From Lachnospiraceae bacterium (GTDB lineage: Bacteria; Bacillota; Clostridia; Lachnospirales; Lachnospiraceae), in assembly GCA_017621815.1 (NCBI GenBank), contig JAGASK010000052.1, positions 186,001 through 250,000 of the forward strand: a stretch of 64,000 bases of DNA, given 5' to 3'. Below the pieces are notes generated by a model, which had not been told where the DNA came from, did not search any database, and saw only the letters and a list, made by a program, of their open reading frames with translations. Shown one piece after another: positions 3,141-20,877 of the stretch (the first letter of the stretch is position 1; each line of letters opens with the position of its first letter). The translations under genes and the position numbers were made by a program.

Positions 3141-3189
3141 ACTAAGGAGCGTTTCGGTAAACGTTATAACCATGCAGTTTTATTTCTAA

Positions 3190-3358
3190 GGAAGCTGCTA
3201 TGGCTGCCCTTTATAAGTGGCGTTGACGGATGGGTCTTACGCAATAGAAATCTGCGAACCGTGTCAGGTTGGGAACAAAGCAGCACTAAGCGGAATCTTC
3301 TATGTGCCGTAAGGGCGCCTGTCCCAAGTTAACTGTAAAGGTAACGCATGGCAGTTTC
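3190..3358 (+). ncRNA. ffs: Signal recognition particle RNA (SRP/4.5S-type)
   Basis: RNA scaffold of the signal recognition particle, which with Ffh targets nascent membrane and secreted proteins. The Ffh-binding hairpin is recognisable: GTCAGG (3263-3268), a GGAA tetraloop (3272-3275), then AAGCAGC. The pairs closing the tetraloop differ from the usual C-G pairs but are compensated (U-A and G-C), which supports a real structure. The ends pair over about 11 bp (3192-3202 with 3347-3357, including G-U pairs). The segment TGTGCCGTAAGGGCGCCTG is also typical. Exact ends are inferred; the primary transcript probably runs from about 3147 to the terminator. Confidence 0.9.
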
Positions 3359-3369
3359 CTTCGGAATAA

Positions 3370-3395
3370 AAAGCATGGTTTTTTCATGCTTTCTA
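3370..3395. terminator. Bidirectional terminator between SRP RNA and the GGDEF gene
   Basis: A perfect 8-bp stem AAAGCATG / CATGCTTT (3370-3377 with 3385-3392) with a T-rich loop. On the minus strand it is followed by TTTTTATTCC. It overlaps the last codon of the minus-strand gene and serves both converging transcripts. Confidence 0.75.
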
Positions 3396-18389: not shown

Positions 18390-18911
18390 ATGGCACAAAA
18401 TCCTGTTGTTACTTTTACCATGGAAAACGGAGATGTAATCAAAGCTGAACTTTATCCTGATATTGCCCCGATTTCCGTGAACAACTTTATCAGCTTAATC
18501 AACAAGCATTTCTATGACGGATTAATTTTTCACCGCGTTATCCGCGGCTTTATGATTCAGGGCGGCGACCCGGAAGGTACCGGCATGGGCGGTCCCGGCT
18601 ACAGCATTAAAGGTGAATTTGCCGCAAACGGCGTGGAAAATAATTTAAAACACACAGAAGGCGTGCTTTCCATGGCAAGAAGCATGATGCCCAATTCCGC
18701 AGGCTCACAGTTCTTTATTATGCATAAGAACGCCCCTCACCTTGACGGTTCCTATGCTGCTTTCGGAAAAGTCATTGAAGGCATGGAGAATGTTAACAAA
18801 ATTGCTGAAACGGCTACTGATTACTCTGACCGTCCTTTGGAAGACCAGGTTATGAAAACCGTTACGGTAGAAACCTTCGGCGAAACTTATCCTGAGCCGG
18901 AAAAATATTAG
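18390..18911 (+). CDS. Cyclophilin-type peptidyl-prolyl cis-trans isomerase
   Basis: 173-residue cytoplasmic foldase that speeds prolyl bond isomerisation. The cyclophilin signature is clear: FHRVIRGFMIQGGDPEGTG with the catalytic Arg, then SMARSMMPNSAGSQFFI and LDGSYAAFGKVIEGM. No signal peptide is present. GAAGGGAAG precedes the ATG. Monocistronic by layout, divergent from the GNAT fusion gene, and followed by 454 bases without a gene that hold a 13-bp palindrome and the symporter leader. Confidence 0.95.
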   Translation: MAQNPVVTFTMENGDVIKAELYPDIAPISVNNFISLINKHFYDGLIFHRVIRGFMIQGGDPEGTGMGGPGYSIKGEFAANGVENNLKHTEGVLSMARSMMPNSAGSQFFIMHKNAPHLDGSYAAFGKVIEGMENVNKIAETATDYSDRPLEDQVMKTVTVETFGETYPEPEKY

Positions 18912-19095
18912 GAAATGAAAAAGCAAAGCAGTGGGACATAGGTACCATGTTGTTCATATTTTGTTCACATTTAATTTAAAAAATCTTAAATTACACAACA
19001 TTCTTTAGACATTTCTGTACCTTATACTAACATCATAAGATACAAAACGGTCAACAACAAAGTAATTGATTTTTTAAATAACTTTTTCATAATAA

Positions 19096-19125
19096 ATGCC
19101 AAGTAAGCATGAGCTTACTTGGCAT
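19096..19125. repeat. Perfect 13-bp inverted repeat, possible cyclophilin terminator
   Basis: ATGCCAAGTAAGC (19096-19108) pairs with GCTTACTTGGCAT (19113-19125) around an ATGA loop. It is 185 bases after the cyclophilin stop. The T-rich stretch after it (CCTCCCTTTT) is delayed, so terminator function is likely but not certain. Confidence 0.5.
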
Positions 19126-19158
19126 CCTCCCTTTTATGAGTCTTTTATCAATTTTCTC

Positions 19159-19187
19159 TTGTGCTTTTGCACATTTTACTGTATATT
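19159..19187 (+). promoter_or_regulatory. Candidate promoter of the symporter leader
   Basis: TTGTGC (19159-19164), a 17-base spacer and TATATT (19182-19187). Weak match; it would place the start near 19194, about 45 bases before the first leader stem. Confidence 0.3.
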
Positions 19188-19237
19188 TAGAAATAGTTAA
19201 TAAAATTTTTACTGATTTTTCATTCTATGATATCCAA

Positions 19238-19327
19238 TGGGGGATGCATCATAGATGATTTTTTATTGTAAATCCCCCAATAGAAAAAATCATTCGGAGG
19301 ATTTACTGGAACGGTAAATTCTTTTTT
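19238..19327 (+). promoter_or_regulatory. Switch-like leader RNA upstream of the AGCS symporter, class not recognised
   Basis: Four pairings compete. Stem A: TGGGGGAT (19238-19245) with ATCCCCCA (19272-19279). Stem B: ATGATTTTTT (19255-19264) with AAAAAATCAT (19284-19293), which crosses stem A like a pseudoknot. Terminator: GGATTTAC (19299-19306) with GTAAATTC (19314-19321), then TTTTTT. Antiterminator: GTAAATCC (19268-19275) with the same GGATTTAC, perfect over 8 bp. Stem A shares four bases with the antiterminator, so forming stem A should favour termination. I see no glycine, lysine or T-box consensus. Confidence 0.6.
19299..19327 (+). terminator. Regulated terminator before the AGCS symporter
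   Basis: An 8-bp stem (one G-U) with a 7-base loop and a run of six T, ending 38 bases before the ATG. Its 5' arm is the target of an alternative upstream pairing. Confidence 0.65.
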
Positions 19328-19365
19328 ATTAGCCAAATATAATACAGGAACAAAGGAGAACTTTT

Positions 19366-20877
19366 ATGGAAAATGTAATGAACGCTATTGCAAACGTCAA
19401 CTCCGCCATAAACGGAGTGGTATGGGGAATTCCGATGCTGATACTGATTATCGGCACAGGTATCTACATGACTGTAGGTATGAAATTCTTCCAGATTACA
19501 AGAATTAAACATTGGATGAATGAAACCTTTCTTGCAATCTTCAAAAAGAAACACGTAACTGCCCACACAGGAAAAGGAGAATCTTCCATTTCCCAGTTCC
19601 AGGCGCTTTCCACTGCACTTGCCGCTACCATTGGCGTAGGTAATATTGCCGGCGTTGCAGGCGCAATTATTACAGGAGGAGCCGGCGCCGTATTCTGGAT
19701 GTGGCTTTCCGCCCTGTTTGGAATGATGACAAACTATTCCGAAAATGTGCTTGGTATTTTTTACCGCCGCAAAAACGCAAAAGATGAATGGTCAGGCGGC
19801 GCCATGTATTACTTGCAGGACGGTCTTAAGAATAAAAAAGTAATCGGCGTTTTGGCGAAGCCCCTGGCAATTTTATTTGCTGTTTTCTGTGTACTTGCTT
19901 CTTTTGGTATCGGCAACATGACACAGGTTCATGAAATTGCAAGCTCCCTGCAGGATACCTTCAGCATTCCGCCCCTTGCAACCGGAATTATCATTGCAGT
20001 AGTTGCAGCTCTTGTTATCTTAGGCGGAATTAAGGCAATCGGCAACGTGGCAGAAAAAATTGTTCCTTTTATGGCATGTGCTTACATACTTGGCACTATT
20101 ATCGTATTGATATTGAATTTCAAGTCCATTCCTTCTGTGTTCGGAGCAATTTTCTCCAATGCTTTCGGTCTTCGTCCCATTGCAGGCGCTACCGTAGGTA
20201 TGATGATCAAACAGGCAATGACCATGGGCTTTAAGCGCGGTGTATTCTCCAACGAAGCGGGCCTTGGTTCCTCCGTTATGGTACATTCCGCTTCCAATGT
20301 AAAGGAGCCTATTGTCCAGGGCATGTGGGGAATTTTTGAAGTATTCTTTGATACAATTGTAGTCTGCACACTGACAGCATTTACCGTACTCTGCTCCGGT
20401 CTTGTAGATTTGGAAACAGGCGAAATTCTCACCGCTTCCACCGGCGCTTCCTTAGTAAGCGAAGCCTTATCTGAGGGACTTGGTTCTCTTGCAGGCGGCT
20501 TTGTTGCAATTGCTGTCTGCTTATTTGCCTTTACTACAGTGCTTGGATGGTCCTTCTATGGCACCAAATCCTGTGAGTACCTGTTCGGAACAAAAGCTAC
20601 CATTGTTTACAAAGTTATCTTTGTTGTCTGCATTATATTCGGCGCCACAATGAGCTTTGACCTTGCATGGGCAATCGCGGATACATTAAATGCATTAATG
20701 GCTATTCCTAACTTAATCGGCGTTCTGTGCCTGTCCGGTACGGTATTTGCCATTACAAGGAATTATACGGAACGTAAAATTACCAAAACCAATCCAAATG
20801 CGAAACCCATGCTTTCCTTCGACCCTGCTATTCAGGAAATGCAGGAAAAGGCTATGGCAGAAGAAGAACAGCAATAA
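19366..20877 (+). CDS. Sodium:alanine/glycine symporter (AGCS family)
   Basis: 503-residue inner-membrane transporter with about eleven helices, importing alanine or glycine with Na+. Family signatures are clear: NSAINGVVWGIPMLILIIGTGIYM at the start, SISQFQALSTALAATIGVGNIAGVA, then FKRGVFSNEAGLGSS and GWSFYGTKSCEYLFG. AAAGGAG precedes the ATG. The leader upstream suggests control by transcription termination. The amino acid cannot be fixed from sequence, since relatives carry alanine, glycine or glutamine. Confidence 0.95.
   Translation: MENVMNAIANVNSAINGVVWGIPMLILIIGTGIYMTVGMKFFQITRIKHWMNETFLAIFKKKHVTAHTGKGESSISQFQALSTALAATIGVGNIAGVAGAIITGGAGAVFWMWLSALFGMMTNYSENVLGIFYRRKNAKDEWSGGAMYYLQDGLKNKKVIGVLAKPLAILFAVFCVLASFGIGNMTQVHEIASSLQDTFSIPPLATGIIIAVVAALVILGGIKAIGNVAEKIVPFMACAYILGTIIVLILNFKSIPSVFGAIFSNAFGLRPIAGATVGMMIKQAMTMGFKRGVFSNEAGLGSSVMVHSASNVKEPIVQGMWGIFEVFFDTIVVCTLTAFTVLCSGLVDLETGEILTASTGASLVSEALSEGLGSLAGGFVAIAVCLFAFTTVLGWSFYGTKSCEYLFGTKATIVYKVIFVVCIIFGATMSFDLAWAIADTLNALMAIPNLIGVLCLSGTVFAITRNYTERKITKTNPNAKPMLSFDPAIQEMQEKAMAEEEQQ

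Follow-up and report, generated by a model that had tools for sequence, protein, structure and literature searches.

We analysed a 64,000-nucleotide stretch of a Lachnospiraceae bacterium genome (the window), in which a leader is located between a peptidylprolyl isomerase gene and the gene for an AGCS symporter, its proposed target (Table 1). Transcription is expected to start at ~19191–19195 from the position of a promoter-like site. The initial annotation of the element began at 19238, leaving out the 5' half of stem A. Its account of an AGCS leader under termination control, with helices that exclude one another, was borne out. The fold of 19190–19365 was unusually stable (z-score −3.07; 1 of 200 shuffles was at least as stable). 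Rfam 15 gave no gathering-level match in the leader, in agreement with its placement outside known riboswitch classes, and an E-value search of 18912–19400 returned five matches, all far under gathering scores. The window's only gathering-level Rfam match was a bacterial large SRP RNA at 3170–3378 (+ strand).

Table 1. Features of the AGCS leader and its neighbours (window positions; pairs are given 5' arm with 3' arm).
Feature	Position	Strand	Sequence or pairing	Energy (kcal/mol)	Basis or remark
Peptidylprolyl isomerase gene	18390–18911				sub-threshold isomerase models only
Sigma-70-type promoter-like site	19159–19187	+	TTGTGC-17-TATATT		by position
Whole element	~19191 to 19327				after the promoter-like site
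Stem A	19224–19231 with 19248–19255	+	TCTATGAT with ATCATAGA, 8 bp	−11.0	
Hexaloop hairpin	19232–19245	+	ATCC-AATGGG-GGAT		proposed ANTAR protein binding site
Stem B	19238–19245 with 19272–19279	+	TGGGGGAT with ATCCCCCA, 8 contiguous bp	−14.6	energy computed for 19239–19278
Antiterminator	19268–19275 with 19299–19306	+	GTAAATCC with GGATTTAC, 8 bp perfect	−11.0	
Terminator-side hairpin counterpart	19287–19304	+	AAATC/GATTT stem, 8-nt loop ATTCGGAG		by eye against relatives
Intrinsic terminator	19296–19327	+	GGAGGATTTAC...GGTAAATTC then TTTTTT	−10.9	
AGCS sodium:alanine-type symporter gene	19366–20877	+			TIGR00835, PF01235; proposed target

We also observed an intergenic element of ~80 nt 3' of the isomerase gene (19058–19137, + strand), a possible small RNA. 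It occurred in 44 of 90 distinct AGCS loci at 81–100% identity, including loci near AGCS genes of only about 60% identity. Two blocks, AACTTTTTCATAAT and CATCCTCCCTTTT, were invariant in 14 aligned copies, and the hairpin between them carried compensatory changes (by eye, 14 copies). The element matched no Rfam family.

The hexaloop hairpin sits at the tip of stem A, ~50 nt 5' of the terminator. Its loop (AAUGGG in RNA; 19236–19241) has A at position 1 and G at position 4, and its 4-bp ATCC/GGAT stem, lengthened by stem A, exceeds the minimum of 3 bp expected of ANTAR targets. The other pairings of the initial annotation are real for stem A, the antiterminator and the terminator with its T run, and had to be corrected for stem B. 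Stem B does cross stem A, as read from the pairs in the sequence, and its formation destroys the hexaloop hairpin; it had been given 10 exact pairs and has seven at 19239–19245/19272–19278 and an eighth at 19238–19279, followed by an A·A mismatch. The four antiterminator-arm bases that become hidden (19272–19275) pair in stem B, and not in stem A as first described. The terminator pairs 19297–19306 with 19314–19323 (10 pairs, two of them G-U) and runs into T's at 19322–19327. At the terminator-side site, relatives carry a hexaloop and the window has an 8-nt loop instead; a scan found no terminator-overlapping hexaloop in the window leader.

We collected leaders of the same AGCS gene; 23 of the 37 genus genomes (G000 being the one with the window leader) have it at an identity of at least 79%. 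Together with one further close relative (L032), the genus set gave 24 distinct leaders. Nineteen of these were short, with a hexaloop hairpin at the terminator (15 by scan; L117, L121, L130 and L134 by eye). They run from promoter to hairpin, variable loop, stem end (for example GTAAATTC) and T run, and a related terminator stem recurs among them. The short element is a hairpin of ~4 bp whose hexaloop starts with a purine and has G as its fourth base; the 3' side of the hairpin is the 5' arm of the terminator. Examples are GAATC-AAYGAG-GATTTAC and ATCC-AATGGG-GGATTTAC. A TTGnnn-17-TATAnT block precedes the short leaders (seen by eye only in 6 of 15 scan rows of the genus set, those for which the promoter finder picked a different upstream site).

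The window's hairpin type, ATCC-AAYGGG-GGAT, lies inside a longer stem in three leaders (G000, G015 and G025) and at the terminator in G031, G027 and G032 (one N). The long form with stems A and B occurred in only 2 of 24 leaders, G000 and G015, and in G015 both stems were mostly paired. There, stem A keeps its pairing with one two-sided and one one-sided change, and stem B has one two-sided change (U-A to C-G) and has lost its last pair, 19245–19272 (both by eye). The 8-bp antiterminator was not kept in the window register in G015, with 3 of 8 pairs broken; the predicted fold has a different antiterminator helix in a shifted register.

An exact match to ATCCAAYGGGGGAT was present in 7 of the 37 genus genomes, five times before this AGCS gene and twice inside other coding sequence, and no other leader of its kind was found. 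With two of seven exact matches in coding sequence, we rejected the hexaloop sequence as a genome-wide marker. A terminator-sequence pattern matched 1 of 299 genomes across the family; it requires a T run too long even for G000, so it is uninformative on spread. We also rejected a leader peptide starting at the ATG of AAUGAG, as the ATG is missing where the loop is AACGAG, AAAGAG or AACGGG (by eye).

Two leaders have lost the unit in different ways. L114 (G030) has a deletion of the hairpin and the 5' arm of the terminator, leaving the promoter and the 3' half of the terminator (by eye); from this sequence, AGCS expression in G030 is likely unregulated. In L178 (G008), a transposase gene (1–1452, − strand; PF13751, PF05598, PF01609) replaces the usual leader upstream of the AGCS gene.

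The initial annotation had proposed a small-ligand sensor of ~90 nt in which stems A and B form a pseudoknot, with Na+ or an amino acid as its possible ligand. The arrangement is indeed H-type pseudoknot-like with a mutually exclusive terminator, and glycine riboswitches (RF00504), which share with this leader the AGCS gene and control by termination, precede AGCS genes at 4 of 20 loci searched (L047, L053, L073 and L098). The relatives argue against it, because in 19 of 24 leaders the predicted start lies just 5' of the terminator-overlapping hexaloop hairpin, which leaves no room for an aptamer. The long form is restricted to two leaders, exact copies of ATCCAAYGGGGGAT come without another leader of its kind, and the window leader matches neither RF00504 nor any other Rfam family. 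We consider a small-ligand riboswitch very improbable. The conserved hexaloop hairpin, found also before glnA and amt, fits published ANTAR targets, which makes a protein a likelier sensor than either ligand. The window leader is probably a rebuilt ANTAR-type hairpin and not a small-molecule riboswitch.

ANTAR targets are described as dual hairpins with A at position 1 and G at position 4 of the hexaloop, the second hairpin (P2) overlapping the terminator (PMC3369931). ANTAR proteins are described there as mostly controlling nitrogen genes, including those for ammonium transporters and glutamine synthesis (PMC3369931, PMC8934654, PMC8164766), and matches before genes of these two kinds have already been reported, as dual hairpins (PMC3369931). 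The leaders studied here resemble the known targets (EutV/eutP, NasR/nasF, AmiR/amiE) in the small hairpin, in a hexaloop that opens with A (or G) and has G as its fourth base, in the overlap of the relatives' hairpin with the 5' arm of the terminator, in the presence of an ANTAR gene in the genome and in the link to nitrogen genes. They differ in that the glnA, amt and relatives' leaders have a single hairpin a few nucleotides from the predicted start, and in that the window hairpin lies far from its terminator and is coupled to it only via stem exchange. PyrR, LicT/BglG and similar attenuators likewise have a protein on a small RNA element that decides between terminator and antiterminator; their RNA signatures differ from the window's.

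We scanned for units in which a C-G-closed hairpin, its stem 3 bp or longer and its hexaloop carrying a purine first and G fourth, overlaps the 5' arm of a terminator. The scan included 65 leaders of distant AGCS genes (~57–66% identical, mostly labelled Lachnospiraceae or other Clostridia). At a terminator score of at least 8, 14 of the 21 terminators before this AGCS gene carried the unit (14 of 24 leaders), as did 28 of the 51 before distant AGCS genes (28 of 65 leaders); none of the 79 in AGCS 3' flanks did. With the score raised to at least 10, the counts were 14/20 and 23/40, and among the other terminator-like sites of these loci 7 of 311 had the unit (these other sites were counted at 10 or more, the flanks at 8 or more and the leaders at both). 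One of the seven other-site matches (L032) has a promoter and hairpin as in amt leaders, with its gene beyond the locus. The scan found no unit in 37 of the 65 distant leaders, and three of the 28 distant matches (L052, L058, L077) were judged doubtful. No unit was found by scan before the second AGCS gene of G000 (C28), which links the unit to a regulon rather than to AGCS genes as such.

The hairpin sequence varied between groups with pairing kept (AAUC/GAUU, AUCC/GGAU, UGUC/GACA, GAAAC/GUUUC). The 55 distinct hairpins comprised 51 from the scan (at least 3 pairs, purine at loop position 1, G at 4) and four added by motif; we assessed covariation in 41 of them, with 14 amt variants excluded. 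Among the 41, 84.9% of hairpin cells were paired compared to 58.3% after shuffling. The covariation score was 0.743, compared to 0.196 for shuffled hairpins (0 of 500) and no more than 0.222 when slid; these figures are inflated by the selection, which biases pairs 1–3 and loop positions 1 and 4 upwards.

Units were not confined to AGCS genes. We examined glnA leaders from G000 and 19 further genus genomes and found the unit at 17 of 20 loci by scan and at one more by eye; L180 and L186 had none. Of 30 amt leaders, 22 carried it, and the scan found two units in six of these; the total may miss some because these leaders were cut at a fixed offset. In G000, the glnA hairpin is GGAC-GAAGGC-GTCC and the amt hairpins are AGC-GAAGGC-GCT and AAGC-AAAGGA-GCTT (the second by eye); the glnA and first amt loops have G, not A, at position 1. 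In 20 genomes of the distant AGCS loci, a glnA-like gene lay upstream of the ANTAR gene in 20 of 20. Eight of these glnA leaders matched by scan, of which L275 and L277 were judged chance, and L274, L276, L282 and L288 were added by eye. This gives 10 of 20 leaders with the unit, half of it judgement and with kinship among the loci not given. Over the whole 2.7-kb distant glnA stretches, there were 11 sense-strand matches compared to 4 antisense. The ANTAR-target loop signature in AGCS, glnA and amt leaders suggests that the sensor is likely a protein and the signal nitrogen status.

Six amt leaders (L201, L206, L210, L219, L225 and L228) have tandem hexaloop attenuators, each overlapping its own terminator; the two are 55–59 nt apart in L201, L206, L219 and L228.

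Both hairpins are needed in vivo for EutV antitermination, and the eut linkers between hairpins span 5–12 nt. PMC8934654 reports a EutV structure in which one hexaloop is bound at a time, suggests that one is enough for binding, and states that the role of single-hexaloop motifs needs further analysis. In our set, all 17 glnA units had the hairpin starting 2–6 nt downstream of the −10 box; the spacing was mostly 9–12 nt for the first amt hairpin and 7–9 nt before this AGCS gene (in the 9 of 15 rows for which the near promoter was chosen). These short distances place the predicted transcript start at or just before the hairpin. In distant AGCS leaders, the best promoter-like site was up to ~80 nt away from the hairpin, which would leave space for a partner hairpin.

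Under a strict test, none of the 15 units of this gene, the 17 glnA units and the 28 amt units showed an upstream partner hairpin; of the 28 distant AGCS units, one did. A looser test gave 0 of 17 for glnA (2.7 expected), 3 of 28 for amt (4.2 expected) and 7 of 28 for distant AGCS units (2.8 expected), some of which may be real. For this gene it gave 6 of 15 (0.6 expected), all on the −10 box TGTATAGT; these would count against a single-hairpin reading if transcription starts further upstream. The data suggest, at the level of sequence, that one hexaloop hairpin can do a job thought to need two. The window leader itself has one hexaloop only, with no second hairpin at a short linker distance, and no P2 hexaloop on the terminator 5' arm (scan; 8-nt loop there). 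As these two defining features are absent, we did not classify it as a dual-hairpin ANTAR target. In the accessible literature, we came across neither single-hexaloop ANTAR attenuators at transcript starts nor AGCS genes under ANTAR control; the supplement of PMC3369931 may list some of the sites.

ANTAR proteins (PF03861) were encoded in 35 of 37 genus genomes, as a single copy in 33; none of 14 control genomes had one. In G000, the sole ANTAR gene adjoins glnA on the same strand and encodes a protein of 185 aa (PF03861, E = 4.2e-18) in which Pfam recognised the ANTAR domain only. Solved chains matching this protein were 6wsh (a response regulator, which we take to be EutV), 1s8n (a putative antiterminator, presumably Rv1626) and 4akk (the nitrate regulatory protein NasR). 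Three positions were constant in all 30 genus ANTAR loci fetched: a Cys in the REC-like part at the phospho-acceptor Asp position of 6wsh, a Met matching the loop-plugging Met172 of EutV, and a His at the position of EutV Tyr164, the Tyr that stacks on G4. A REC-like domain lacking the phospho-acceptor Asp would probably be switched by a partner or metabolite, so the signal is probably something other than phosphorylation; a link to glutamine synthetase or PII would be our guess.

Among genomes of distant AGCS loci, ANTAR matches were found in 46 of 49 and 15 of 16; at 61 of 65 they are nearly universal, so their co-occurrence with hexaloop leaders is weak evidence. The four AGCS genomes that carry the gene and have no ANTAR match could point to a different RNA-binding protein, or a small RNA such as the conserved 19058–19137 element, whose CCUCCC could pair with GGAGGAU (by eye), as the factor that reads the hexaloop. 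None of these four genomes has a hexaloop leader, which speaks against such a factor, as do the loop signature and terminator overlap, both as described for ANTAR targets, and the position of the ANTAR gene next to glnA, which has a similar unit. We regard another trans-acting factor as improbable.

The reading we favour, and hold to be fairly probable on comparative grounds, is that the window leader derives from a nitrogen-regulon attenuator under ANTAR-protein control and has been rebuilt into a relay. When nitrogen is short, the ANTAR protein would bind the hexaloop. In the relatives, the bound hexaloop would directly block the terminator. In the window, the bound protein would hold the tip of stem A so that stem B could not capture GGGGG; the C strand, left free, would pair with the 5' arm of the terminator as the antiterminator, and transcription would continue into the symporter gene. 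In unbound RNA, stem B would take the C strand and the terminator would form. Several observations count against this reading: the distance of the window hexaloop from its terminator, the need of EutV for two hairpins, the G at position 1 of the glnA and first amt loops of G000, the His at the Tyr164 position of the genus ANTAR proteins and the 37 of 65 distant AGCS leaders without a unit by scan.

We predicted equilibrium folds at increasing transcript lengths with the hexaloop free or held. For the window leader at 60 nt, the hexaloop hairpin had a probability of 0.97, stem A with its hexaloop being the first to form. In free RNA, stem B reached 0.95–0.97 at 92–110 nt, the antiterminator 0.87–0.92 at 117–130 nt and the terminator 0.99 at full length. 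With the hexaloop held, the antiterminator reached 1.00 at 117–130 nt, and the terminator was still favoured at full length (0.84); the two helices have nearly equal energies (Table 1). The relay would therefore have to be kinetic, and since free RNA of 117–130 nt favours the antiterminator, the off state would rely on stem B as a kinetic trap. The predictions make the relay plausible solely as a kinetic choice, backing its order of events and, weakly, its end state. The long leader of G015 had no equilibrium switch, with a terminator probability of 0.07 both free and held.

In the scanned units, forcing the hexaloop lowered the median terminator probability from 0.99 to 0.00 (15 units of this AGCS gene), from 0.95 to 0.00 (17 glnA units), from 0.96 to 0.00 (28 amt units) and from 0.98 to 0.00 (28 distant AGCS units, one of which stayed above 0.5). 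This mutual exclusion is partly by construction, as the helices overlap.

Alternatively, the window leader could be a decayed ANTAR attenuator in which the hexaloop beside the terminator has disappeared, the upstream hairpin survives as a relic copy, and the terminator now does no more than keep read-through at a constant low level. The 8-nt loop where relatives have a hexaloop, the predominance of termination at equilibrium in held RNA and the fold of G015 agree with decay, as does loss of the unit elsewhere, by deletion in G030 and with a transposase gene in its place in G008. Against decay, stems A and B are mostly paired in G015 with one two-sided change each (by eye), the fold is unusually stable, and the upstream hexaloop is exact and recurs in G025 in another context. 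We consider decay rather unlikely.

An ANTAR-controlled relay in the window would also fit a wider model, which we put forward tentatively as quite possible: single-hexaloop ANTAR antiterminators at the transcript 5' end would, contrary to the two-hairpin rule, control Lachnospiraceae nitrogen genes, and the window's hexaloop would have been uncoupled from its terminator and wired to it via a riboswitch-like strand-exchange relay, with a protein acting where a riboswitch has its ligand. For the question of what single-hexaloop motifs do, raised in PMC8934654, the glnA, amt and AGCS leaders are ready candidates. They are short enough for one-tube transcription tests, with the window as a natural relay version, and together they outline a nitrogen regulon in gut Lachnospiraceae.

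Lastly, we observed combined leaders among the loci with glycine riboswitches. In L047 and L053, the glycine aptamer (RF00504) is followed by a terminator with an ANTAR-type hexaloop on its 5' arm, and from this layout two sensors may share one terminator. L049 has the hexaloop and no Rfam match.
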